Below are positions 45,214 through 62,119 of a DNA stretch of 64,000 bases, piece by piece. The translations under genes and the position numbers were made by a program. The notes beneath the pieces were generated by a model. It was not told the origin of the DNA and did not search any database. It saw only the letters and a list, made by a program, of their open reading frames with translations. The stretch's first letter is position 1, and every line of letters starts with the position of its first letter. Source of the DNA: Seonamhaeicola sediminis. Lineage in GTDB: Bacteria; Bacteroidota; Bacteroidia; Flavobacteriales; Flavobacteriaceae. The stretch is taken from positions 124,001 to 188,000 of the forward strand of contig NZ_SMZJ02000003.1 in the NCBI RefSeq assembly GCF_004358095.2, given 5' to 3'.

Positions 45214-47142
45214 ATGAGCAATTACCATATAAAACATCTAGAAGAATACTATCAAGTATATAGAAAATCGGTTAGAGAACCTGAAAATTTCTGGGAAGAA
45301 GTTGCTGAAGAGCATTTTATGTGGCGCAAGAAATGGGATAATGTCTTAAGCTGGGATTTTTCTAAGCCTGAAGTTAAATGGTTTGAAGGAGCACAATTAA
45401 ATATAACCGAAAATTGCATTGATAGACATTTGGCAACAAGAGGTAATAAAACAGCTATTCTTTTCGAACCGAACAACCCAAACGAAGCCTCTATTTCTAT
45501 TAGTTACAAAGAACTTTCAGAACGTGTCAATAAATTTGCAAATGTCTTAAAAGATCATGGTATTGAAAAAGGAGACAGAGTTTGTATTTATCTTCCCATG
45601 ATACCTAAATTAGCAGTTTCGGTTCTAGCTTGTGCTAGAATTGGCGCTATTCATTCCGTGGTTTTTGCAGGCTTCTCTTCAACGGCTTTATCAACTCGAA
45701 TTAATGATTCTCAATGTAAAATGGTCATCACCAGTGATGGTTCTTACAGAGGTTCTAAAACAATAGATTTAAAAGGCATTGTAGATGAAGCATTAAACGA
45801 TTGCTCTTGCGTGGAAACTGTTTTAGTTGTCAAACGTATTCAATCTGATATTCACATGGAATCTGGAAGAGATAAATGGTTACAACCCTTATTAGACAAT
45901 GCGTCTTCTATTTGTCCAGTTGAAGTAATGAATGCTGAAGATCCTTTGTTTATTCTATACACATCAGGTTCTACAGGTATGCCCAAAGGTATGGTACACA
46001 CTACGGCAGGTTACATGGTTTATACTGCCTACACATTTAAAAATGTATTCCAATACAGGGAAGATGATATTTATTGGTGTACTGCAGATATTGGCTGGAT
46101 AACAGGCCATAGTTATATTGTATATGGGCCTCTGGCAAACGGAGCTACAACGGTCATGTTTGAGGGTGTTCCAAGTTACCCTGATTATGGTCGGTTTTGG
46201 GAAATTGTTCAAAAACATAAAATAAATCAGTTCTACACAGCACCAACAGCCATTAGAGCTTTAGCTAAACAAGGACTTGAAGTTGTTGAAAAGTATGATT
46301 TATCTTCATTAAAGACTCTAGGTTCTGTAGGTGAACCCATAAATGAAGAAGCTTGGCATTGGTACAATGATAATATTGGCAAAAAGAAAAGCCCCATAGT
46401 GGATACCTGGTGGCAAACTGAAACCGGTGGCATCATGATTACCCCCATCCCATTTGTAACACCAACAAAACCAACCTATGCTACGCTACCATTTATAGGT
46501 ATTCAGCCTGCTTTGATGGATGAAAACGGATATGAAATTAAGGGTAATCAAGTGGATGGGCGCCTATGTATAAAATTCCCTTGGCCAAGTATGGCTAGAA
46601 CCATTTGGGGGAATCATCAAAGATACAAAGACACTTACTTTTCGGCTTTTGAAAACAAGTACTTTACTGGCGATGGTGCTTTACGTGATGAGGTTGGATA
46701 TTATCGAATTACAGGAAGGGTTGATGATGTTATCATTGTATCTGGTCATAATTTAGGAACTGCACCCATCGAAGATGCTGTAAATGAACATCCAGCAGTT
46801 GCAGAGTCAGCAATAGTTGGCTTCCCACATGATGTAAAAGGGAATGCGCTATATGGATATGTAATTCTTAAAGACACTGGTGAAAGTAGAGATCACACCA
46901 ATTTGCGTAAAGAGATAAATCAAATTATAACAGAGCACATTGGCCCTATAGCTAAACTGGACAAAATTCAATTTACTCCAGGATTACCAAAGACACGTTC
47001 AGGTAAAATTATGAGGCGTATTCTAAGAAAAATAGCCTGCAATGACACATCAAACTTAGGAGACACCAGCACCTTACTAAATCCTGAGGTAGTCCAAAGT
47101 ATTATTGATGGAGCTAAGGACTCAAAAAACACCAACTGGTAA
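45214..47142 (+). CDS. acs: Acetate--CoA ligase (acetyl-CoA synthetase)
   Basis: Acs converts acetate, CoA and ATP to acetyl-CoA. The 642-residue ANL-superfamily enzyme has the P-loop YTSGSTGMPKGMVH near residue 250, the DTWWQTETGG motif near 400, the hinge GRVDDVIIVSGHNLGT and the C-terminal PKTRSGKIMRR with the catalytic Lys that is acetylated in homologues. The length is usual for bacterial Acs (about 650). An interesting local detail is GHNLGT where most Acs have GHRLGT. Confidence 0.95.
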   Translation: MSNYHIKHLEEYYQVYRKSVREPENFWEEVAEEHFMWRKKWDNVLSWDFSKPEVKWFEGAQLNITENCIDRHLATRGNKTAILFEPNNPNEASISISYKELSERVNKFANVLKDHGIEKGDRVCIYLPMIPKLAVSVLACARIGAIHSVVFAGFSSTALSTRINDSQCKMVITSDGSYRGSKTIDLKGIVDEALNDCSCVETVLVVKRIQSDIHMESGRDKWLQPLLDNASSICPVEVMNAEDPLFILYTSGSTGMPKGMVHTTAGYMVYTAYTFKNVFQYREDDIYWCTADIGWITGHSYIVYGPLANGATTVMFEGVPSYPDYGRFWEIVQKHKINQFYTAPTAIRALAKQGLEVVEKYDLSSLKTLGSVGEPINEEAWHWYNDNIGKKKSPIVDTWWQTETGGIMITPIPFVTPTKPTYATLPFIGIQPALMDENGYEIKGNQVDGRLCIKFPWPSMARTIWGNHQRYKDTYFSAFENKYFTGDGALRDEVGYYRITGRVDDVIIVSGHNLGTAPIEDAVNEHPAVAESAIVGFPHDVKGNALYGYVILKDTGESRDHTNLRKEINQIITEHIGPIAKLDKIQFTPGLPKTRSGKIMRRILRKIACNDTSNLGDTSTLLNPEVVQSIIDGAKDSKNTNW

Positions 47143-47285
47143 AGTTTTTTTCAGAATATAAAAAAGACTCCGATTTAAGCAATAATCTTTTCTTTATCAA
47201 AAATATTTCCAATCCCTTGTTATGTAAAGAAGTTATTATCGACTTAAGATTTTATATTTTCATATTTTAGACCAAAATATAAAAG

Positions 47286-47621
47286 ATGAGTAAAACATAC
47301 TACGACCCCGCAGACCTAAGAAAATTTGGAAAAATCACAGAATGGAGTGAAGATATCGGAAATAAATTTTTTGATTATTACGGGAAAGTTTTTGAAGAAG
47401 GTGCTTTAACTGCTCGTGAAAAATCATTAATAGCTCTTGCGGTTGCACATACAGAACAATGCCCCTACTGCATTGACGCCTATACCAAAGATGGTTTACA
47501 ACGTGGTGTTACCAAAGAAGAAATGATGGAAGCCATACATGTAGGAGCTGCTATTAAAAGTGGTGCTACTCTTGTTCATGGGGTACAAATGATGAATAAA
47601 GTGAATAAATTGGATGGGTAA
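47286..47621 (+). CDS. AhpD-like (carboxymuconolactone decarboxylase) protein of the arsenosugar cluster
   Basis: A 111-residue all-helical protein of the CMD/AhpD family. The redox motif HTEQCPYCIDAY has Cys59 and Cys62 in a CxxC arrangement preceded by His55, as in AhpD-type peroxidases. Proteins of this subtype are annotated as arsenosugar-biosynthesis-associated peroxidase-like proteins because they lie next to arsS, as here. Its reaction is not established; a thiol-based reduction of an arsenic or peroxide species is a reasonable inference. A 299-bp gap with repeat-like sequence separates it from arsS. Confidence 0.85.
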   Translation: MSKTYYDPADLRKFGKITEWSEDIGNKFFDYYGKVFEEGALTAREKSLIALAVAHTEQCPYCIDAYTKDGLQRGVTKEEMMEAIHVGAAIKSGATLVHGVQMMNKVNKLDG

Positions 47622-47633
47622 AAGCCCCTCCTA

Positions 47634-47652
47634 ACCTCCCCTAAAGGGAGGA
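47634..47652. repeat. REP-like hairpin (CCTCCC ... GGGAGG)
   Basis: CCTCCC (47635-47640), spacer CTAAA and GGGAGG (47646-47651) form a compact G+C-rich hairpin 14 bp after the AhpD-like stop codon. The context CCTAACCTCCCCTAAAGGGAGG resembles a short extragenic palindrome that I recall as scattered in many Flavobacteriaceae genomes. It could also act as a transcript-end structure. Confidence 0.5.
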
Positions 47653-47719
47653 ACCTTACTCATACTTTGAAAGACAAAATATAAGTTGGGTGAAAAAAAG
47701 TAAATAACAGAAAATCAAG

Positions 47720-47890
47720 TCCCAAATTCCGACGTAGTCGGAAGCATCAAAAATCAGAAATAATGAACGAAAGAGTGAAGATGCGAAGCGTAGCTTCAAG
47801 CACAAAACTCTGAAAGTGAATGTTGCTTTAGCAATTTCCTATTTTTGACTCGATTTTTTGGTTCGTTTTGTATCGCTGCAAAATGAACAA
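47720..47890. repeat. Intergenic segment with three small palindromes, possible repetitive element
   Basis: Within the gap before arsS are TTCCGAC-GTA-GTCGGAA (47727-47743), GAAGC-GTA-GCTTC (47785-47797) and TTGCT-TT-AGCAA (47823-47834). The flanking text (towards TTTTTGGTTCGTTTTGTATC at about 47854-47873) resembles sequence I have seen repeated between genes in flavobacteria. No intact reading frame of note is present. I read it as a repetitive or decayed element rather than a gene. Confidence 0.4.
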
Positions 47891-47920
47891 TAAATATAAA
47901 AGGTATTTTTTAAGAGTACT

Positions 47921-48985
47921 ATGACGAAAATAAAAACACAATCGCTACACAAGCGCGAAAGCACATTAGCTCAAAGCAAAAGACAATTAGAAATTTTATC
48001 TAACGGTATTTTCCAAAACGGAGAACTGCCAACATTTAAGTCTAAAATATCTGAAACAAACCAGTTTCCCTTGAAGGCAAAAAAGCTTGAAATTTTGCAA
48101 ATCAACATAGGCTATATGTGTAACCAAGTTTGCGAACATTGCCATGTAGATGCAGGTCCAGATCGTCAAGAAATAATGACCAAGGAGACCATGCAGCAGT
48201 GTTTATACGTTATTAAAAATACAGGCGCACATACTTTAGATTTAACAGGTGGTGCTCCAGAAATGAATCCTAATTTTAGATGGTTTATAGAAGAAGCGGC
48301 AAAAGCAGGTATTAAAGACTTTATAGTACGCTCTAACCTTACCATTATTCGGGCTAATAAAAAGTATTACGATTTACCAGAATTCTTTAAGAAACACAAT
48401 GTGCATGTTGTAAGCTCTATGCCACATTGGACGCGTGGAAAAACAGACAAACAACGTGGCGACGGTGTTTTTGATAAATCAATAAAAGCATTACAAGAAT
48501 TAAACGCGGTTGGCTACGGCATGCCAGATAGTAATTTAAGACTCGATTTGGTTTACAATCCCTCAGGTGCATTTCTTCCGGGTGACCAAGCTTCTATGGA
48601 AAAAGACTTCAAAAAAGCATTACTTGAAGATTTTGGAATTCAGTTCCACAATTTATTCGCAATAACCAACCTTCCTATAAGCAGGTTTTTAGATTATTTA
48701 ATCGCTTCAGAAAACTACGAAGATTACATGTACGCCCTAGTTGAGGCTTATAACCCTTCAGCTGTAGCCAACGTTATGTGTACCAATACACTTTCCGTAA
48801 GTTGGGAAGGCTATTTATTCGATTGCGATTTTAATCAAATGCTTGAGCTACCTGTGAGCAGTAAAATAAAGCATATATCTGAATATAATGAGGAATTATT
48901 AGAGGGTAGAAATATTGTTATTTCGCAACACTGCTACGGTTGTACCGCAGGTGCAGGTAGTAGTTGCCAAGGCACTGTGGCTTAA
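47921..48985 (+). CDS. arsS: Arsenosugar biosynthesis radical SAM enzyme ArsS
   Basis: ArsS couples S-adenosylmethionine cleavage to transfer of the 5'-deoxyadenosyl group onto dimethylarsenite, giving 5'-deoxy-5'-dimethylarsinoyl-adenosine. The 354 residues have the radical SAM cluster motif CNQVCEHC (Cys67, Cys71, Cys74), a GGAPE SAM-binding motif near 110-114, and a C-terminal DUF3641-like region with Cys287, Cys302 and the terminal HCYGCTAGAGSSC (Cys338, Cys341, Cys349). Some relatives have selenocysteine in the C-terminal motif; here all codons are Cys. arsM lies 2 kb downstream on the same strand. Confidence 0.95.
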   Translation: MTKIKTQSLHKRESTLAQSKRQLEILSNGIFQNGELPTFKSKISETNQFPLKAKKLEILQINIGYMCNQVCEHCHVDAGPDRQEIMTKETMQQCLYVIKNTGAHTLDLTGGAPEMNPNFRWFIEEAAKAGIKDFIVRSNLTIIRANKKYYDLPEFFKKHNVHVVSSMPHWTRGKTDKQRGDGVFDKSIKALQELNAVGYGMPDSNLRLDLVYNPSGAFLPGDQASMEKDFKKALLEDFGIQFHNLFAITNLPISRFLDYLIASENYEDYMYALVEAYNPSAVANVMCTNTLSVSWEGYLFDCDFNQMLELPVSSKIKHISEYNEELLEGRNIVISQHCYGCTAGAGSSCQGTVA

Positions 48986-48994
48986 ATACAAGTT

Positions 48995-49489
48995 ATGCAA
49001 AAAACTTTCCTGTTTTTTATTTTTTTTATTTCTGCACTAGGTTATTCTCAAAAGAAATTAGATAAATTACTCAAGAAATATAATTCGGAAAAGATTCCGT
49101 ATATTTATGTAAATGAATTGAAATCATACCCAGACAATATTATTCTTTTGGATGCCAGAGAACAAAGAGAATATGCAACTAGTCATTTAAAAGATGCTAT
49201 TGCTGTTGGGTATGATTTCTTTAACATAGATTCTACTTCTAAAAAAATACCAAACAAGAATTCTAAAGTTGTGGTATATTGCTCTTTGGGCATTCGTTCT
49301 GAAGATATTGCCGAAAAACTCCAAAAAGCTGGATATAAAAATGTTTTCAATTTATTTGGTGGCATTTTTGAATGGAAAAATAATCTACAAAAAGTTTATA
49401 ATCTAAAAGAGCAAGAAACCGATAGTGTGCATGCCTTTAGTAAAGATTGGGGGAAATGGTTGCAAAAAGGGATTAAAGTATATGAATAA
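48995..49489 (+). CDS. Exported rhodanese-domain protein
   Basis: A 164-residue protein with a signal peptide (MQKTFLFFIFFISALGYSQ) and a single rhodanese domain. The active-site loop VVYCSLGIRS has Cys96; the loop is of the length seen in sulfurtransferases. It starts 10 bp after arsS and overlaps the next gene by eight bases, so it belongs to the arsenosugar operon. A periplasmic sulfurtransferase might process thiolated arsenic species, but this is inference. Confidence 0.87.
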   Translation: MQKTFLFFIFFISALGYSQKKLDKLLKKYNSEKIPYIYVNELKSYPDNIILLDAREQREYATSHLKDAIAVGYDFFNIDSTSKKIPNKNSKVVVYCSLGIRSEDIAEKLQKAGYKNVFNLFGGIFEWKNNLQKVYNLKEQETDSVHAFSKDWGKWLQKGIKVYE

Positions 49490-50111
49490 AGAACTCGTTA
49501 TTGTTTTTGTAAAAAACATAAAGTTGGGCAAGGTAAAAACCCGACTTGCTAAAACCATTGGCAATCAAGCTGCTTTTGAGGTGTATAGTGAATTGGTGAA
49601 AATTACAGAACAGGCTACCACTAAACTTAAGGCAGACAAGCGCATCTACTTTTCAGATGCCATTATAGAAACCAAATGGAATGGTTTTGAAAAGCATGTG
49701 CAAGAAGGCAAAAATCTTGGTATACGCATGAAAAATGCTTTTTCTAAAGGGTTTAAAGACGGTTACAATCGTATTGTATTAATAGGCTCAGATTTACCTG
49801 ATATTAATGAAACACATATTAATAATGGGTTGAACGCTTTAAAAGAATACAACACTGTTTTTGGGCCATCTGTTGATGGTGGTTATTACCTGATCGGACT
49901 TTCTAAATTATATCATAATGTGTTTGATAATAAGCCTTGGAGCCAACCAAATTTACTGGAAGAAACATTGCAAGAATTAAGTGCAAAAGCTATAACATTT
50001 AGTATTTTAGAAACCTTAAATGATATTGATACGTTTGAAGACTTAATAACTTCAAATTTTTACAAATCGAATATAGAGTTACAAGAAAAAATTAAACAGT
50101 TAAATGATTAA
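49482..50111 (+). CDS. DUF2064/TIGR04282-type GT-A fold protein of arsenosugar biosynthesis
   Basis: A 209-residue GT-A-fold protein. The N-terminal FVKNIKLGKVKTRLAKTIG loop resembles the nucleotide-binding loop of CofC- and MobA-like nucleotidyltransferases. GSDLPDI near residue 108 supplies the acidic metal-binding residues, and GPSVDGGYYLIGL follows near 132. The family is usually called an arsenosugar biosynthesis glycosyltransferase, but its fold and N-terminal loop fit a nucleotidyltransferase that activates a sugar phosphate equally well. The ATG at 49482 lies eight bases inside the rhodanese gene. Confidence 0.87.
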   Translation: MNKELVIVFVKNIKLGKVKTRLAKTIGNQAAFEVYSELVKITEQATTKLKADKRIYFSDAIIETKWNGFEKHVQEGKNLGIRMKNAFSKGFKDGYNRIVLIGSDLPDINETHINNGLNALKEYNTVFGPSVDGGYYLIGLSKLYHNVFDNKPWSQPNLLEETLQELSAKAITFSILETLNDIDTFEDLITSNFYKSNIELQEKIKQLND

Positions 50112-50916
50112 ATTTATTACAGAAACGGTAGATTATCTCAAAGACAAAGGCTTCTATAAACCAGAAGTGGGTATTATTTTAGGCACTGGTCTTGGACAAC
50201 TTATTAATTCGGTTGAAGTTTTAAAAGAGGTAAGCTATAACCATATTCCCAATTTTCCAACGGCCACAGTGGAGTTTCATAGAGGAAAACTTGTCTACGG
50301 GAATCTTGCTGGAAAAAAAGTTATAATAATGCAAGGTCGTTTTCATGTATACGAAGGCTATACGCTACAGGATGTTACCTACCCTGTGCGCATTATGCAA
50401 CAATTAGGTATTCATACCCTATTAGTTTCTAATGCCGCTGGAGCTATTAATTTAGATTTCAAAAAAGGAGAATTGATGTTGATTGACGACCATATTAACC
50501 TTCAAGGAAGTTCGCCACTAGCAGTAAAAGGTATTGAGCAAATGGGTGAGCGTTTTGTAGATATGAGTGCTCCTTATGATGCTCTAATTAACGCTAGTTT
50601 TAAAAATATTGCGAAAACCCATAACATAAAATTACACAAAGGCGTATATGCAAGTGTGGTTGGCCCACAATTAGAAACCAGAGCAGAATACAGAATGCTT
50701 AAAATAATTGGGGCAGATGCTGTTGGGATGAGCACCGTACCAGAAGTTATTGTGGCAAACCACTTAAAATTGAAGGTGGCAGCAGTGTCAGTTTTAACGG
50801 ATGAATGCGACCCAGATAACTTAGAACCTGTAAATATTGAAGAAATTATAGCCATGGCAGCAAAGGCTGAACCAGATATGGTAACACTTTTTAAAGCTGT
50901 AATTGAAACATTATAA
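50104..50916 (+). CDS. Purine nucleoside phosphorylase / MTA phosphorylase family protein
   Basis: A 270-residue trimeric-type PNP-family enzyme, which cleaves the base from a nucleoside with phosphate to give ribose-1-phosphate. Conserved features are GTGLG (27-31), GRFHVYEG with His81, GPQLETRAE with Glu191 and the VGMS motif with Met209. Three positions look MTAP-like: Thr28 in place of the usual Ser of PNP, Asp233 in LTDECD where guanosine/inosine-specific PNPs have Asn, and Ile245 where they have the His that binds the 5'-hydroxyl. It overlaps the previous gene by eight bases. Within this cluster it may act on the arsenic-containing adenosine made by ArsS. Confidence 0.92.
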   Translation: MIKFITETVDYLKDKGFYKPEVGIILGTGLGQLINSVEVLKEVSYNHIPNFPTATVEFHRGKLVYGNLAGKKVIIMQGRFHVYEGYTLQDVTYPVRIMQQLGIHTLLVSNAAGAINLDFKKGELMLIDDHINLQGSSPLAVKGIEQMGERFVDMSAPYDALINASFKNIAKTHNIKLHKGVYASVVGPQLETRAEYRMLKIIGADAVGMSTVPEVIVANHLKLKVAAVSVLTDECDPDNLEPVNIEEIIAMAAKAEPDMVTLFKAVIETL

Positions 50917-50986
50917 AAAAAATTGTAGTGTCCATTTAGGAATAAGACCAAGAACTAAACTAAATACCCAATATTAAATAAAAAAC

Positions 50987-51958
50987 ATGAGTACATACTT
51001 AGAAACCACACACAATGTATATAAAGAAGCCGCATTAACTCCAGATGTAGGTTTATGCTGTACCACAAACCCCATTTGGGAATTACCAGGATTAAAAATT
51101 CCCAAAATCATGCAAGAAATGAATTATGGTTGTGGCTCTACAGTGCATGCCAGAGATTTAACCAATAATCCAAAAATGCTTTACGTTGGTGTTGGTGGCG
51201 GTATGGAATTGTTGCAGTTCGCTTATTTCAATCGACAAAAAGGAGGTGTAATAGGTGTTGATGTGGTAGATGAAATGTTAGAAGCTTCACGTAAAAATTT
51301 TAAGGAAGCCGAAGCACTAAACGATTGGTTTAAGAGCGATTTTGTAACACTAAAAAAAGGAGATGCGCTTCATCTTCCTGTTGAAGATAACAGTATTGAT
51401 GTTGCAGCACAAAACTGTTTGTTTAACATCTTTAAAGCAGACGATTTAAAAAAGGCTATTGCCGAAATGTATCGTGTTTTAAAGCCTCATGGGCGTTTGG
51501 TAATGAGCGACCCTACCTGCGAGCAACCTATGAATGACACCTTACGGAATGATGATAGATTACGTGCCTTGTGTTTAAGTGGTAGCTTGCCTATTGCTGA
51601 ATATGTAAAAATGTTGACAGATGCTGGTTTTGGCACTATTGAAATTAGAGCCAGAAAACCTTATAGAATTTTAGACCCAAAACATTACCCAACGGATGAA
51701 TTAATATACATTGAATCCATTGAGGTTGCTGCCATAAAAGACCCAATGCCTGAAGATGGCCCATGTATTTTTACTGGAAAAGCTGCCATTTATTATGGTG
51801 ACGCGGATTATTTTGATGACAAAAAAGGGCATGTATTACTTAAAAATCAACCGTTAGCCATTTGTGATAAAACCGCTGGTGCTCTAGCAGATTTAAATCG
51901 GCATGATATTTTCATTAGTGAATCTACCTATCATTATGACGGCGGGGGCTGCTGTTAG
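50987..51958 (+). CDS. arsM: Arsenite methyltransferase ArsM (arsenosugar type)
   Basis: ArsM transfers methyl groups from S-adenosylmethionine to trivalent arsenic. The 323-residue class I methyltransferase has its SAM loop YVGVGGG at 66-72 and the acidic VIGVDVVDEML strand end at 88-97. Cysteines likely to bind As(III) are Cys24/25 (GLCC), Cys49, Cys144, Cys178 (SDPTC) and Cys196 (ALCLSGS). The last two match the spacing pattern of conserved ArsM cysteines. The protein ends in GGGCC, a C-terminal Cys pair. The architecture agrees with the subfamily found with ArsS, which stops at dimethylated product. Confidence 0.94.
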   Translation: MSTYLETTHNVYKEAALTPDVGLCCTTNPIWELPGLKIPKIMQEMNYGCGSTVHARDLTNNPKMLYVGVGGGMELLQFAYFNRQKGGVIGVDVVDEMLEASRKNFKEAEALNDWFKSDFVTLKKGDALHLPVEDNSIDVAAQNCLFNIFKADDLKKAIAEMYRVLKPHGRLVMSDPTCEQPMNDTLRNDDRLRALCLSGSLPIAEYVKMLTDAGFGTIEIRARKPYRILDPKHYPTDELIYIESIEVAAIKDPMPEDGPCIFTGKAAIYYGDADYFDDKKGHVLLKNQPLAICDKTAGALADLNRHDIFISESTYHYDGGGCC

Positions 51959-51978
51959 TTAGTAATTTTAAATTTACA

Positions 51979-52815
51979 ATGCGAAATATATTATGCATTA
52001 CTTGCTGTATTCTTTTGTTAGCGTCTTGTAAGGGAACAAGAAAAGTAACAGAGATGTCTAGACCCCAAGAAAAAAGTCACACCCAAGATATCACAACTAC
52101 AGTTTATACTTTAGAAACTAAACAAGAGAATAAAACCATAAGAGATAGTCTAAAAAAAGTAACTACCCGCGTTTTATCTCAGCATCAGTTATGGGATAAT
52201 CTTTTGGGAAAATACGTTTCAAACGAGGGACATGTGGATTACCAAGGCTTAAAAAAAGAATATAACAAACTTCAAGAATATATTAGTTTTCTCCAAAGTT
52301 CTGTGCCAGAAAAAGATAGTTCTAAAAACCAAAAATTAAGTTATTGGATTAACACTTACAATGCTTTTACAGTTGATTTAATTTTAAGACATTATCCCAT
52401 TAATAGTATAAAAGACATTAAAGAACCTTGGCAACAACGCCATTGGAAATTAGGAGACAAATGGTATAATTTAGATGAGATAGAACACCATATTTTACGT
52501 AAAATGGATGAACCTCGTATTCATTTTGCCATAAACTGTGCCTCTATATCTTGTCCTAAACTTCAAAATAAAGCATTTACAACAACACATTTAGAAACAC
52601 AATTAACTAAAGCTACCAAAGACTTTTTAAATGATCCTGAAAGAAATTCAATTTCAAAAGATAATTTAGAACTCTCAAAAATATTTCAATGGTTTGCCAA
52701 AGATTTTAAACAACATGGTTCGTTAATTGATTTTTTAAATCAATATTCTGACTTAGAAATTTCACAGAAAGCAAAGAAAAACTACAAAGATTACAATTGG
52801 AGTTTAAATGAATAA
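51979..52815 (+). CDS. DUF547 lipoprotein
   Basis: A 278-residue lipoprotein: signal peptide and lipobox LLASC (Cys about 17), a charged linker to about residue 65, then a DUF547 domain. Conserved DUF547 features are LSYWINTYNAFTVDLI and RIHFAINCASISCPKL, the latter a HFxxxCxxxxCPxL motif. The function of the domain is unknown; structural relation to papain-like or transglutaminase folds has been suggested. The gene is placed between arsM and a glycosyltransferase, overlapping the latter by eight bases, so it belongs to the cluster. Confidence 0.9.
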   Translation: MRNILCITCCILLLASCKGTRKVTEMSRPQEKSHTQDITTTVYTLETKQENKTIRDSLKKVTTRVLSQHQLWDNLLGKYVSNEGHVDYQGLKKEYNKLQEYISFLQSSVPEKDSSKNQKLSYWINTYNAFTVDLILRHYPINSIKDIKEPWQQRHWKLGDKWYNLDEIEHHILRKMDEPRIHFAINCASISCPKLQNKAFTTTHLETQLTKATKDFLNDPERNSISKDNLELSKIFQWFAKDFKQHGSLIDFLNQYSDLEISQKAKKNYKDYNWSLNE

Positions 52816-53533
52816 AATCTCTATTGTCATACCCGTTTTAAATGAATCAGCTAATATTAAAAATTTACTGAATTACCTTATTGAAAATTCATCTGAGGAA
52901 AATATTCAAGATATTTTAGTGGTTGATGGGGGAAGTATTGATGGCACTCAAGATATGGTTCTCGACACATTCGCACAGAGAGAAAACACTCGAACTTACA
53001 TTCGTCTTTTAACATCAGAAAAAGGACGTGCCAAACAAATGAATTTTGGTGCAAAAAACGCTTCAGGAAATATTCTCTATTTTCTTCATGCCGATTCTTT
53101 CCCTCCTAAAAACTTTGATAAATTAATTATTAAACAGGTAAAAAACAGTAATAAAGCGGGTTGTTTTAGAATGAAATTTGACAGCAACCATTGGTGGTTA
53201 AAACTAGCGGGATGGTTAACAAAATTTTCGTGGAAAATAGCACGTGGCGGAGACCAAAGCCTATTCATTACTAAATCACTGTTTTACAAGATTGGTGGTT
53301 TTGATGAAAGTTACACCATATACGAAGACAATGATTTTATAAGTAAGCTTTATAAACGCAAACAATTTGTGGTAATTCAAGAGTGGTTGGTAACTTCATC
53401 TAGACGTTATAAAACCAACGGGTTGTGGAAATTACAATATCACTATTGCAATATCCATATTAAAAGATTATTGGGTGCAGATGCCCAAACGTTAAACAAA
53501 TACTACTTAAAGCACGTTCTTGTTAAAAAATGA
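52808..53533 (+). CDS. TIGR04283-type family 2 glycosyltransferase of arsenosugar biosynthesis
   Basis: A 241-residue GT2-fold enzyme. SIVIPVLNESANIKNLL starts the nucleotide-sugar domain, VVDGGSIDGT follows near 38, the donor metal motif FLHADS lies near 93, and the diagnostic GRAKQMNFGA (about 75) and ARGGDQSLF (about 148) motifs identify the subfamily found near arsS. It has no transmembrane helix apart from a possible hydrophobic patch, so it is probably cytoplasmic or peripheral. Donor and acceptor are unknown. The start overlaps the DUF547 gene by eight bases. Confidence 0.9.
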   Translation: MNKISIVIPVLNESANIKNLLNYLIENSSEENIQDILVVDGGSIDGTQDMVLDTFAQRENTRTYIRLLTSEKGRAKQMNFGAKNASGNILYFLHADSFPPKNFDKLIIKQVKNSNKAGCFRMKFDSNHWWLKLAGWLTKFSWKIARGGDQSLFITKSLFYKIGGFDESYTIYEDNDFISKLYKRKQFVVIQEWLVTSSRRYKTNGLWKLQYHYCNIHIKRLLGADAQTLNKYYLKHVLVKK

Positions 53534-53610
53534 TAAAACTGTTGTAACAAAAAGTTAATTAATCGGTCGTGTTTTTGTAATAACTTAATTTCATAGCAAA
53601 ATCAAGACCA

Positions 53611-55134
53611 ATGAAATCCTATTTAGCAAGTTTATTTTGTTTAATATCATTTGCGCTTTTATTTGGTCAAGAATCAATCAGTGCTAAATTAATTGACTCC
53701 ACAACTCAAAAACCCATTCTCTTTGCAACTATTAGCTATGGAAAAAACTCTGGTGTTATTAGTAATAGTGATGGTGATTTTCAAATTCACTTTAAATCAA
53801 ATCCTTCAAAATCAGATTCAATTTTCATTAGTTGCTTGGGATATAAAACTAAACAGATACCCGCTTTACATTTTAAGGATAGTATTATTTTACTAAGTCC
53901 AAAATCCATCGAGCTAGACGAAGTTCTGGTTTCTAACAAAAACTATAGTGTAGAGGAAATAATTGAAAAAACACACGAAAATCTCTCTGCGAATTATCAT
54001 TTTAACTACAACAAAAGTAAATTGTTCTATCGCGAATCTTATTTCAATCACATAACCAAAAACAGCATTAAAGTAAAAGAAAGTACTATCCCAGAATTTA
54101 ACCAGAAATTTATGGATAGTATCATGGCTATTATGTCCAAAGAAGCAGACGATTACACCGAATTATTGGGTACACTTTACACAAAGACCGACCCTGAAGA
54201 AAAACATAAACTAGACATTATAAAGGCATCTCGGTTGTACGACAAGAAAAAAGAAGTTTCTTTTGATGGACTTGAAGAACGCTTCAATGCCATATTTAGA
54301 AAACATGTAAAAAGAGATTCTTATTTTAAGATAAAGTCAGGCATTTTTGGAACAAAGGAAGACATAGATTCATCTCTGTTTGATAGTGCAGATACCAAAA
54401 AGGAAAAAGAAAAAACAGATGCGTTTTTAGAAGAACAGAAAAAAAAGGAACTAGAACGTAAAAAAAATTTCTTAAAACACAGAAAAAACACCATTTCTAA
54501 TTTAGAGCACAGAAGTTTTATTTTTGAAGACTCTCATTTAAACTTTCTTGAAAAACCTAAAAAGTACGCGTTTGAGTTATTGGATTATATCTTTTTAAAC
54601 GGGGAATTTGTTTATAAAATAAGTTTCAAGCCAAAACGCAGTGCCAATTACAAAGGCACATTGTATATAAATACAGATGATTTTGCCATAATAAGAGTAG
54701 ACTATAAAAATGTGAAACCTTTAAGGAGTTTTAGGCTCTTGGGTATTTCATATCAAGAAGTATTACACCGTGGCACCTTAATTTATGCTAAAAATGATGT
54801 GGAAACATACACCCTAAAATATGCTGAATCTGAAACTGGAAATAACTTTGGCATTAAACGTCCTTTAAAAATTATTGAAAAGAACAAAAATGTAAAAGGT
54901 AGAAGAAAGCAAAATGAACTCTCTATGGATCTTCACTTTACTATTTCAAACACTACAAAAAAAGAACTGGTGGTTTTTGAAAGTGAAACTATTAATAAAA
55001 CGGTTTTTGATGTTTTTGAGGAAAAATTAAATATTAGCCCAACATATTTACCTGCTTACGACCCTACATTTTGGGAAGGCTACAATGTAATAGAACCCAA
55101 TAAAGCTATTAAAGATTTTAAGAGTATAGAGTAA
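53611..55134 (+). CDS. Exported protein with carboxypeptidase-D-like regulatory domain
   Basis: A 507-residue protein with a signal peptide (ending near ALLFGQ), an N-terminal CarboxypepD_reg-like beta-sandwich (about 22-105, with PILFATISYGKNSGVISNSD and LGYKTKQIP) and a large C-terminal region of unknown fold (to residue 507), rich in charged residues (a Lys/Glu-rich helix near 275-295). The N-terminal domain is common in TonB-dependent receptors and outer membrane proteins of Bacteroidota, but no plug or barrel is evident. It meets the next, convergent gene with no gap (stops at 55132-55134 and 55135-55137). Confidence 0.85.
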   Translation: MKSYLASLFCLISFALLFGQESISAKLIDSTTQKPILFATISYGKNSGVISNSDGDFQIHFKSNPSKSDSIFISCLGYKTKQIPALHFKDSIILLSPKSIELDEVLVSNKNYSVEEIIEKTHENLSANYHFNYNKSKLFYRESYFNHITKNSIKVKESTIPEFNQKFMDSIMAIMSKEADDYTELLGTLYTKTDPEEKHKLDIIKASRLYDKKKEVSFDGLEERFNAIFRKHVKRDSYFKIKSGIFGTKEDIDSSLFDSADTKKEKEKTDAFLEEQKKKELERKKNFLKHRKNTISNLEHRSFIFEDSHLNFLEKPKKYAFELLDYIFLNGEFVYKISFKPKRSANYKGTLYINTDDFAIIRVDYKNVKPLRSFRLLGISYQEVLHRGTLIYAKNDVETYTLKYAESETGNNFGIKRPLKIIEKNKNVKGRRKQNELSMDLHFTISNTTKKELVVFESETINKTVFDVFEEKLNISPTYLPAYDPTFWEGYNVIEPNKAIKDFKSIE

Positions 55135-59901: not shown

Positions 59902-60615
59902 TTATTGTATATTTATGGTCCAGTTATATGGAAAGTAACTTAACTTCCATTTACCTTCTAGTTTTTCTGTTCTGTATGTATTTATAAAGTCTATTTCATC
60001 GGTACCATTCATGGTAAAATCTTCTTTATACCACTCCATAATTTGAGAGACTTGTACGCGATTTTTCTTTGAATTTACTTGAATAAAACTCCCGTTTATG
60101 GCCTTTTTTGTTTGGGTTTCTAATTGTACATCTAACGTTATCGGTAAGTAAGCTTCACTAATTAAAGGTGGGCAGCCAACTGCGCCACACACCAATACAA
60201 AGTGAAATCTTGGATCTTTAAAATTACCTCTAAGTAATTTGTGCTCAATATCATTTAAGGTGATGTTTTTGCCACCAATATTGTGTTTTGTTTTATCAAA
60301 AAAACCTGCATTATCTAATGGTGATTTTGTTGGGTATTTATCAATTAGTCCTTTTATTACTGATAAATTGTAGGCGTTAATCCAAAAGGCTTGGTAATTT
60401 TTAGCATCATCTTTCGCTACTGAAATACCTTGAGCAATTTTTAAAACTTCGTGTAATTTTGATGGATCTTTATGAATTTTATCATAAGCTACTCTACCGT
60501 TTACCACGTTTGTTTTAAAAAATGCGTCTGCTTTATTAAAGAAGGAATTTAAGTTTTGTGCTTTTACTGAAAATGCAGTTGTAATTAAAGCTATAATTAA
60601 AATATGTTTTTTCAT
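59902..60615 (-). CDS. Periplasmic DUF547 protein
   Basis: A 237-residue exported protein with a cleavable-looking signal peptide (AFSVKAQ) rather than a lipobox. The DUF547 core has YQAFWINAYNLSVIKGLI near residue 75 and RFHFVLVCGAVGCPPL near 138, sharing the HFxxxCxxxxCPxL motif with the lipoprotein paralogue at 51979-52815. It heads the minus-strand group that includes an outer membrane protein and the GH113-like gene. Function is unknown. Confidence 0.88.
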   Translation of the reverse strand: MKKHILIIALITTAFSVKAQNLNSFFNKADAFFKTNVVNGRVAYDKIHKDPSKLHEVLKIAQGISVAKDDAKNYQAFWINAYNLSVIKGLIDKYPTKSPLDNAGFFDKTKHNIGGKNITLNDIEHKLLRGNFKDPRFHFVLVCGAVGCPPLISEAYLPITLDVQLETQTKKAINGSFIQVNSKKNRVQVSQIMEWYKEDFTMNGTDEIDFINTYRTEKLEGKWKLSYFPYNWTINIQ

Positions 60616-60820: not shown

Positions 60821-62119
60821 ATGGAACACATCGTTATTATAGGAAATGGTATTTCAGGCGTTACAGCTGCCAGACATATTAGAAAACTTTCCGATAAAAA
60901 AATCACTATTGTATCTGCTGAAACCGATTATTTTTTTTCCCGTACAGCGTTGATGTATGTGTATATGGGGCACATGAAGTTTGAACATACGCAACCTTAT
61001 GAAAATTGGTTTTGGAAGAAAAATAGAATCGAATTAAAAAAGGGATACGTTCAATCTATAGAAAACAAAAATAAAACACTTCACTTTTCGGATGGAGAAA
61101 CTTTAAACTACGACAAATTAATTATTGCAACAGGAAGTAAACCCAATAAATTTGGATGGCCTGGACAAGATTTAGAAGGGGTAATGGGCATGTATCACAA
61201 ACAAGATTTAGAAAACCTTGAAAAATACGCTCCAAACAATAAATTCTGTAAACGCGCTGTCATTGTTGGCGGCGGTTTAATTGGAATTGAATTGGCAGAA
61301 ATGTTAAGTTCTAGAGGCATACCTGTTACCTTTTTAGTCCGCGAAACTAGTTTTTGGAATGGTGTTTTACCTGAAGGAGAAAGCCAAATGATTAATAGAC
61401 ATATCAAAAATCATCACATTGATTTACGACTTTCAACAAACTTAAAAGAGATAAAAGCAGACGAAGCAGGTAAGGTTAATTCTATCATAATTCAAGAAAC
61501 GGGCGAAGAAATTGCCTGCGATGTTGTTGGTTTAACTGCTGGTGTATCGCCTAATATTGATTTTATTAAGGATTCTGAAATTGAAATTGGTAGAGGTGTT
61601 AAAGTAAATAGATATTTAGAAACTAATATTCCTGATGTGTATGCTATTGGTGATTGTGCTGAACAACATGAGGCCATTGGCCAACGCAGGCCTATAGAAG
61701 CGGTTTGGTATACTGGAAGAATGATGGGCGAAACTCTAGCACAAACTATATGCGGCAATCGTATCCAATACAAACCCGGGCATTGGTTTAACTCTGCAAA
61801 ATTCTTTGATATTGAATACCAAACCTACGGATGGGTGTTTTCTAAACCAAGAGAAAATGAAGCCCATTTTCATTGGAAACATACAGACGACACCAAATGT
61901 ATTACAGTATGCTATGATACCAAAACCAATGAATTCTTAGGTATTAACACATTTGGCATACGCATGAGACACGACGTTTTTGATAAGTGGCTAACAGAAA
62001 AACGAAATGTAGATTTTGTAATGCAAAACCTATCAAAAGCCAATTTTGACCCTGAATTCTACAAGCATTATGAACAAGATATTTTAAACACATTTAATAA
62101 AAACTTTATTATAGCATAG
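60821..62119 (+). CDS. FAD-dependent NAD(P)H oxidoreductase
   Basis: A 432-residue pyridine-nucleotide-disulfide-reductase-type flavoprotein. The FAD loop is IIGNGISGVTAAR (residues 6-18), the NAD(P) loop is VIVGGGLIGIELAEM near 148, and the second FAD motif YAIGDCAEQH lies near 272. No redox-active CxxxxC pair is present in the FAD domain, so it is not a disulfide reductase; it is closer to ferredoxin- or nitrite-reductase-type flavoproteins. The next gene, for a membrane 4Fe-4S protein, starts 1 bp after the stop, suggesting direct electron transfer between the products. Confidence 0.9.
   Translation: MEHIVIIGNGISGVTAARHIRKLSDKKITIVSAETDYFFSRTALMYVYMGHMKFEHTQPYENWFWKKNRIELKKGYVQSIENKNKTLHFSDGETLNYDKLIIATGSKPNKFGWPGQDLEGVMGMYHKQDLENLEKYAPNNKFCKRAVIVGGGLIGIELAEMLSSRGIPVTFLVRETSFWNGVLPEGESQMINRHIKNHHIDLRLSTNLKEIKADEAGKVNSIIIQETGEEIACDVVGLTAGVSPNIDFIKDSEIEIGRGVKVNRYLETNIPDVYAIGDCAEQHEAIGQRRPIEAVWYTGRMMGETLAQTICGNRIQYKPGHWFNSAKFFDIEYQTYGWVFSKPRENEAHFHWKHTDDTKCITVCYDTKTNEFLGINTFGIRMRHDVFDKWLTEKRNVDFVMQNLSKANFDPEFYKHYEQDILNTFNKNFIIA

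Follow-up and report, generated by a model that had tools for sequence, protein, structure and literature searches.

A candidate arsenosugar biosynthesis cluster in Seonamhaeicola sediminis, with predicted enzymes for the steps that follow ArsS

Which enzymes take over after ArsS in arsenosugar biosynthesis is the question raised by eight genes, arsS and arsM among them, at positions 47286-53533 on the + strand of a 64,000-nucleotide stretch of the Seonamhaeicola sediminis genome (contig NZ_SMZJ02000003.1, positions 124,001 to 188,000; the whole stretch is hereafter the window). In algae and seafood, arsenic is widely found as arsenosugars and arsenosugar lipids, and two steps are known from cyanobacteria, namely the formation of dimethylarsenite by ArsM and the addition of a 5'-deoxyadenosyl group by ArsS. 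Adenosylation of arsenic by ArsS, giving a 5'-deoxy-5'-substituted adenosine, is described in the accessible part of one review (PMC12159101), which agrees with the first-pass annotation of this DNA that the pathway past ArsS is undefined, and the accessible part of another passes from the adenosyl intermediate to just "glycosidation", leaving the enzymes unnamed (PMC4632732). The cluster is very probably an arsenosugar pathway, a reading first made from the letters of the window and upheld here by the NCBIfam families of the genes and by their recurring neighbourhoods.

The gene set and its recurrence beside ArsS

The eight same-strand genes reported earlier, arsS, arsM and six linked ones, are all present; open reading frame analysis found every one intact and the profile searches agree, as listed below with scores and cut-offs.

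47286..47621, + strand: AhpD-like CxxC protein (TIGR04169, 192.7 bits, cut-off 120)
47921..48985, + strand: ArsS, radical SAM enzyme (TIGR04167, 440.8 bits, cut-off 300)
48995..49489, + strand: rhodanese (NF045521, 204.8 bits, cut-off 145)
49482..50111, + strand: DUF2064 protein (TIGR04282, 186.6 bits, cut-off 134)
50104..50916, + strand: trimeric-type purine-nucleoside phosphorylase, PNP (PRK08202, 348.5 bits, cut-off 218; TIGR01697, 297.5 bits, cut-off 197.1)
50987..51958, + strand: ArsM, arsenosugar-type arsenite methyltransferase (NF038099, 580.3 bits, cut-off 400)
51979..52815, + strand: DUF547 protein (PF04784, 98.5 bits, cut-off 27)
52808..53533, + strand: GT2 glycosyltransferase (TIGR04283, 227.3 bits, cut-off 182)

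The AhpD-like gene lies 299 bp before arsS; from arsS to the GT2 gene no gap exceeds 70 bp, and three neighbouring pairs overlap by 8 bp (in order: 9 bp, 8-bp overlap, 8-bp overlap, 70 bp, 20 bp and 8-bp overlap). The DUF2064 gene starts with the ATG at 49482; the query used in the searches was 49485-50111, one residue short. In ArsS, the CxxxCxxC motif (C67, C71 and C74) and C338, C341 and C349 are invariant in 26 sequences, and no solved sequence relative was found at E 0.01.

Five of the eight families, ArsM (NF038099), ArsS (TIGR04167), TIGR04169, TIGR04282 and TIGR04283, carry an "arsenosugar biosynthesis" label in NCBIfam, and the corresponding proteins all score above the curated cut-offs for arsenosugar cluster membership. 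A sixth, the rhodanese family NF045521 (rhoda_near_glyco), takes its name from gene neighbourhood, so the cluster type has already been recognised by annotators and cannot be called an undescribed system, for which the first-pass annotation saw it as the best candidate. That description may hold for the chemistry after ArsS: no paper giving arsenosugar synthesis a phosphorylase or a nucleotidyltransferase was found in the open-access literature, most subscription journals lying outside the search. Unlike the NCBI-annotated gene set, the operon includes the NF045521 rhodanese as well as the PNP and the DUF547 protein, whose families have no arsenosugar label, and phosphorolysis and nucleoside diphosphate (NDP) activation are proposed here for steps without an enzyme.

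Association of the gene set with ArsS, the check suggested earlier for this cluster, proved strong in a same-class sample of 159 genomes, 28 of which, from 18 families, encode ArsS over the cut-off. TIGR04282 was over its cut-off in all 28 ArsS genomes versus 12 of the 131 others (Fisher p 4.9e-22; none of the p values given here takes account of common descent), TIGR04169 in 18 versus 0 (p 5.4e-17), NF038099 in 15 versus 0 (p 9.2e-14), NF045521 in 18 versus 9 (p 1.3e-10) and TIGR04283 in at least 10 versus 0 (p 6.2e-9), the last among the best 17 candidates per genome at E 1e-40 or better, a search that can miss members. Matches below the cut-off were seen for TIGR04169 in three ArsS-less genomes and for TIGR04282 in five further genomes, all without ArsS. 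Trimeric PNP was found in 132 of the 159 genomes at E 1e-40 and, being nearly universal in the class, is uninformative by its presence; a second trimeric copy occurs in 9 of the 28 ArsS genomes versus 3 of the 131 (p 7.4e-6). In 8 of the 28 genomes, from 6 of the 18 families, ArsS has a PNP no more than 5 kb away, with about 0.1 expected.

The layout recurs far beyond chance around 107 other ArsS loci, made up of 27 drawn with the class sample and 80 named loci, mostly of Flavobacteriaceae (one contig was included twice, as L071 and L177). Counted as single-linkage families, which gives lower bounds as some contigs end early, the neighbours were AhpD in 92 loci (94 by a second gene-picking), DUF2064 in 85, PNP in 64 (by both gene-pickings, 62 on the same strand), ArsM in 53 (55), DUF547 in 46 (45), rhodanese in 42 (44) and GT2 in 31 (by both). 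Twenty control loci away from ArsS were hand-chosen, 19 around DUF2064 (8 of them in genomes with ArsS elsewhere) and one around PNP; none held DUF547, GT2, rhodanese, AhpD or ArsM, and PNP was present in one, the locus centred on it by choice.

Of 296 genomes sampled across the phylum, 121 encode ArsS, and 100 of these belong to other classes; among 20 of those 100 loci, spread over families, AhpD was a neighbour in 16, DUF2064 in 7, GT2 in 5, ArsM in 4, DUF547 in 3 and a FA_hydroxylase-type protein in 2. Beyond Bacteroidota the sample consisted of plasmid records alone. On plasmids, ArsS is encoded in 52 records, from six genera and with 47 from Burkholderia; one record per genus was read. 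Cupriavidus sp. KK10 carries, in order and among others, PiT, a methyltransferase, ArsS, a FAD oxidoreductase, a VTT protein, TIGR04283, TIGR04282, MTAP, a second radical SAM protein and DUF547. The Acinetobacter portensis plasmid carries ArsS, DUF547, TIGR04283, TIGR04282, a methyltransferase and PiT, with mtnP and a sterol-desaturase-family gene on the opposite strand after PiT, and TIGR04282, TIGR04283 and MTAP adjoin about 6 kb from ArsS in Burkholderia glumae. The Acinetobacter record read, NZ_CP096121.1 (L247), a plasmid with NDM-1 in its record name, carries most of the arsenosugar-type gene set. Second radical SAM genes lie near DUF547 in Cupriavidus (L246:13446-14918), where the protein weakly resembles TrsS and tetraether lipid synthase, and in Burkholderia glumae (L249:11081-12478).

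The phosphorolysis step

Described at first as PNP/MTAP-like, the phosphorylase is a PNP by profile and not an MTAP, scoring 94.3 bits with TIGR01694 versus a cut-off of 274.85. The catalytic residues R79, H81, Y83, E191, M209 and S210 are kept in all 139 PNPs aligned. At position 245, taken to correspond to His257 of the human enzyme, the window protein has an Ile that aligns with the His of the solved PNP 8swu; the residue is aliphatic in all 68 rows of the clade of cluster copies (I 63, L 4 and V 1; FastTree, 139 rows), and of the 71 PNPs that fall outside this clade 43 have His. PNP His257 binds the nucleoside 5'-OH, according to the accessible parts of two papers (PMC3214022, PMC12648331). 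Six genomes hold both a cluster PNP and a further trimeric PNP; in five of them the former is aliphatic at this position and the latter has His. The 68 rows represent 66 distinct proteins (L071 = L177, L092 = L207), 62 rows coming from the window or ArsS loci, two from beside DUF2064 only, one being L094 and three coming from the comparison set. The 71 comparison PNPs are a non-random sample of 30 best-scoring matches and about 40 from chosen regions. All 17 sampled cluster PNPs (15 in ArsS loci and 2 beside DUF2064 only) fell in one 23-row branch with support 100/98, in a tree of 57 of the 139 rows (49, one per 66%-identity group, and eight added by hand) whose bootstrap had not settled.

MTAP (5'-methylthioadenosine phosphorylase) is an enzyme for 5'-modified adenosines, and the reaction proposed for the cluster PNP resembles its role in methionine salvage in also acting on a 5'-deoxy-5'-substituted adenosine; the comparison concerns the working mode only, since the window protein is a PNP by profile. 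MTAP itself is present in three proteobacterial arsS clusters, where no PNP was found and where the plasmid proteins score 276 to 315 bits with TIGR01694, over the cut-off. As matches to the Cupriavidus MTAP occur in just 71 of 72,556 plasmid records, 47 of them from Burkholderia, its presence in three of the six ArsS plasmid genera is notable, though six is a small sample. The window genome encodes two other PF01048 proteins and no second TIGR01697 match; one of the two genes adjoins a deoC-like gene and is presumably DeoD-like.

Several observations weigh against a cluster PNP dedicated to the arsenic nucleoside. Of the 71 PNPs beyond the clade, 28 likewise lack His at position 245 (27 of them are aliphatic there), suggesting that the change is older than the cluster; this His therefore does not define the TIGR01697 family, and its loss is no bar to membership. 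Its replacement, considered as proof of substrate, was downgraded accordingly. Three of the 28 (L093, L099 and L176) come from the neighbourhood set, and L176, from a locus with ArsS, lies outside the clade in the 139-row tree. The 23-row branch holds six other rows, L207 (= L092), G010, G014, G029, G033 and G088, of which G010, G014, G029 and G033 are from genomes without ArsS over the cut-off and the G088 copy is away from its ArsS; because the branch includes genes not beside ArsS, the cluster enzyme may be a phosphorylase of 5'-modified nucleosides in general. L093, L094 and L099 had been left out of the "near" set as not beside ArsS, and L094 falls inside this branch, the others outside. 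Rhodanese, PNP and MTAP occur in none of the 20 other-class loci, where no phosphorylase was found within up to 9.5 kb, and the Hymenobacter, Pseudanabaena and Thiodictyon plasmids (three of six lineages) have none within 8 kb of ArsS. Genome G062 has PNP, DUF2064, rhodanese and DUF547 in a row (L092, G062:C32) and no ArsS over the cut-off; given its completeness rating of 100%, the substrate of these four proteins as a sub-module may be a different 5'-modified nucleoside. As a separate matter, an Asn243-to-Asp change considered as a mark of adenine specificity was rejected, Asp being present in 134 of the 139 PNPs, in both groups.

It could alternatively be argued that the PNP just salvages adenosine from S-adenosylhomocysteine released by ArsM, the arsenosugar being made via another, unlinked route. 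This would suit a profile that describes general purine-nucleoside phosphorylases, a gene placed directly before arsM in the window and the lack of a nearby phosphorylase in the other-class loci, but we consider it unlikely, as the three PNP-less proteobacterial clusters have MTAP, the clade of cluster copies is without the 5'-OH-binding His throughout, and some ArsS loci, L121, L126, L142 and L162 for instance, have PNP and no ArsM in the stretch read, although ArsM may be elsewhere in those genomes. We favour phosphorolysis of the adenosyl-arsenic nucleoside by the cluster PNP as a probable step, the most economical reading being that a Bacteroidota 5'-modified-nucleoside phosphorylase was taken into the cluster and that Proteobacteria took in MTAP independently.

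The nucleotidyl step and the remaining genes

A sugar-1-phosphate from the phosphorylase would need activating before use by a GT2 enzyme, so NDP activation is proposed, with the DUF2064 protein as the candidate. Its structure model (pLDDT 94.7) matched best the uncharacterised 3cgx (Z 25.8), then 3-phosphoglycerate guanylyltransferase 7p97 (Z 19.6), the probable nucleotidyltransferase MM2497 (2i5e, 18.6) and Rv2983 (16.7), the last two presumably CofC and FbiD. The same fold extends over nearly the full length of DUF2064 at Z 16.7-19.6; unlike these enzymes, with which identity is 15-17%, the proposed substrate is a sugar-1-phosphate. Profile matches to TIGR03552 and Pfam CofC are weak (TIGR03552, 34.9 versus a cut-off of 105 bits), so DUF2064 is not a CofC, though it may work like one. 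Residues G15, K18, R20 and L21 of the GKxKTRL stretch, D103, D131, D180 and D182, numbered from the second residue, are invariant in 34 sequences. On the model and these matches, we lean slightly towards DUF2064 being a nucleotidyltransferase that activates arsenoribose-1-phosphate.

The NCBI family names point to another possibility, that TIGR04282 and TIGR04283 are serial glycosyltransferases and that PNP and DUF547 are incidental to the cluster. The GT-A fold is common to glycosyl- and nucleotidyltransferases, and mannosylglycerate synthase, the best glycosyltransferase match of the DUF2064 model, reaches Z 13.5. We hold this improbable, because the structural matches ranked 2 to 12 are all named nucleotidyltransferases or Rv2983, and because PNP and DUF547 neighbour ArsS in 64 and 45 of the 107 loci versus 1 (PNP-centred) and 0 of the 20 controls. 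The assignment of DUF2064 as a putative nucleotidyltransferase puts the "glycosyltransferase" label of TIGR04282 in question.

A DUF2064 paralogue without the KTRL stretch lies near ArsS in L111:11135-11815, L112:11121-11801, L130:11069-11743 and others, followed in several loci by SusC-/SusD-type genes, a Pfam-less 446-aa protein and a metallophosphoesterase, each of which occurs in 12 or 13 of the 107 loci. This set might serve to take up a phosphorylated compound of arsenic or sugar type. PiT phosphate transporters occur in 7 of the 107.

For the GT2 protein, four solved sequences pass a threshold of E 1e-5, with values of 5e-8 to 9e-6, all of them polyprenyl-phosphate sugar transferases, solved as undecaprenyl-phosphate 4-deoxy-4-formamido-L-arabinose transferase and dolichol monophosphate mannose synthase; these are its nearest solved relatives, unlike it in that the match is limited to the N-terminal half of the GT2. 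Transfer of an arsenoribosyl group by this protein is a likely assignment. A FA_hydroxylase-type membrane protein (PF04116) is encoded in 20 of the 107 ArsS loci, in the same orientation throughout and often directly ahead of DUF547 (L110:18602-19486 is an example), and also near ArsS in the Acinetobacter and Thiodictyon plasmids. Among NCBIfam models it comes closest to the ornithine-lipid hydroxylase OlsE (87 versus a cut-off of 475 bits), and it is possibly a lipid-modifying partner, hinting at a lipid product. The gene is absent from the window; the genome does encode an unlinked homologue with 55% identity (G000:C48:29950-30813).

The AhpD-like protein may be a thiol redox partner of the arsenic enzymes, which is our guess; NCBIfam holds an ArsM/AhpD fusion family, NF041537. 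The rhodanese and the DUF547 protein look exported, judging by eye from a signal-like N-terminus in the former and a lipoprotein-like one in the latter. Acr2/Cdc25-type arsenate reductases have a seven-residue CX5R loop, and this identity was rejected for the rhodanese, whose active-site loop, like that of 47 of 49 relatives, is a six-residue C-x4-R; it is accordingly sulfurtransferase-like and possibly takes part in thio-arsenic chemistry. The DUF547 protein has a NCASxSCP motif; no solved sequence relative better than E 0.085 was found, and fold searches gave no Foldseek match at E 0.001 or better and a best VIA Z of 5.1, absences that carry no weight as evidence. Outside the operon, at 59902-60615 on the - strand, lies another DUF547 gene, whose product shares 33% identity with that of the cluster.

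At the borders of the cluster, the next gene (53611-55134) encodes a CarboxypepD_reg-domain protein with a same-strand relative in 3 of 80 loci and was not counted as a member. The pyridine-nucleotide-disulphide oxidoreductase at 60821-62119 belongs with a family present in 18 of the 107 ArsS loci, sharing 72% identity with its representative, which may be plain synteny. Between the AhpD-like gene and arsS (47622-47920), no Rfam match was obtained and the repeat search reported no repeat; a short palindromic stretch there, at about 47624-47650, resembles repeats of flavobacteria. Across 47100-53900, promoter-like sites numbered 27 versus a shuffled mean of 28.3, and terminator-like sites 10 versus 3.5 (s.d. 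2.1), mostly within genes.

The proposed route and its meaning

In the proposed route, ArsM would give dimethylarsenite, to which ArsS would add the 5'-deoxyadenosyl group. The cluster PNP would then, with phosphate, convert the nucleoside to adenine and 5-deoxy-5-dimethylarsinoyl-ribose-1-phosphate, as MTAP does with methylthioadenosine, and the DUF2064 protein would join this arsenoribose-1-phosphate with an NTP to give NDP-arsenoribose, a sugar nucleotide that is, to our knowledge, not known. From there the GT2 enzyme would pass the arsenoribosyl group on, with glycerol or a lipid head group as acceptor, so that the product is an arsenosugar or an arsenosugar lipid. The AhpD-like protein might keep arsenic or enzyme thiols reduced, and the rhodanese and DUF547 proteins might act on the product at or beyond the inner membrane, both roles being guesses. 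Taken as a whole, from ArsM and ArsS through phosphorolysis and NDP activation to GT2 transfer, the route is the best explanation we can offer, and we judge its chances evenly poised.

That the pathway ends in a simple, detoxified organoarsenical which is exported, with no arsenosugar ever formed and the downstream genes processing another sugar, is very unlikely: the absence of any arsenic product or arsenosugar report for Flavobacteriaceae in the open-access literature, which also counts against an arsenosugar pathway, and the DUF2064 and rhodanese matches over the cut-off in 12 and 9 of the 131 genomes without ArsS speak for it, but TIGR04283 (among the best 17 candidates per genome) and TIGR04169 reach their cut-offs solely in ArsS genomes, the three sub-cut-off TIGR04169 matches aside.

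A broader version of the arsenosugar reading, which we advance tentatively and think rather less likely than the route itself, is that clusters of this kind hold the entire enzyme-less half of arsenosugar synthesis, with a dedicated phosphorylase, TIGR04282, TIGR04283 acting towards lipid and a membrane arm of DUF547 and the OlsE-like hydroxylase, and lead to bacterial arsenosugar lipids, PNP having been recruited in Bacteroidota and MTAP in Proteobacteria independently. The cluster supplies candidate enzymes for the missing steps of arsenosugar synthesis, each with a predicted substrate.

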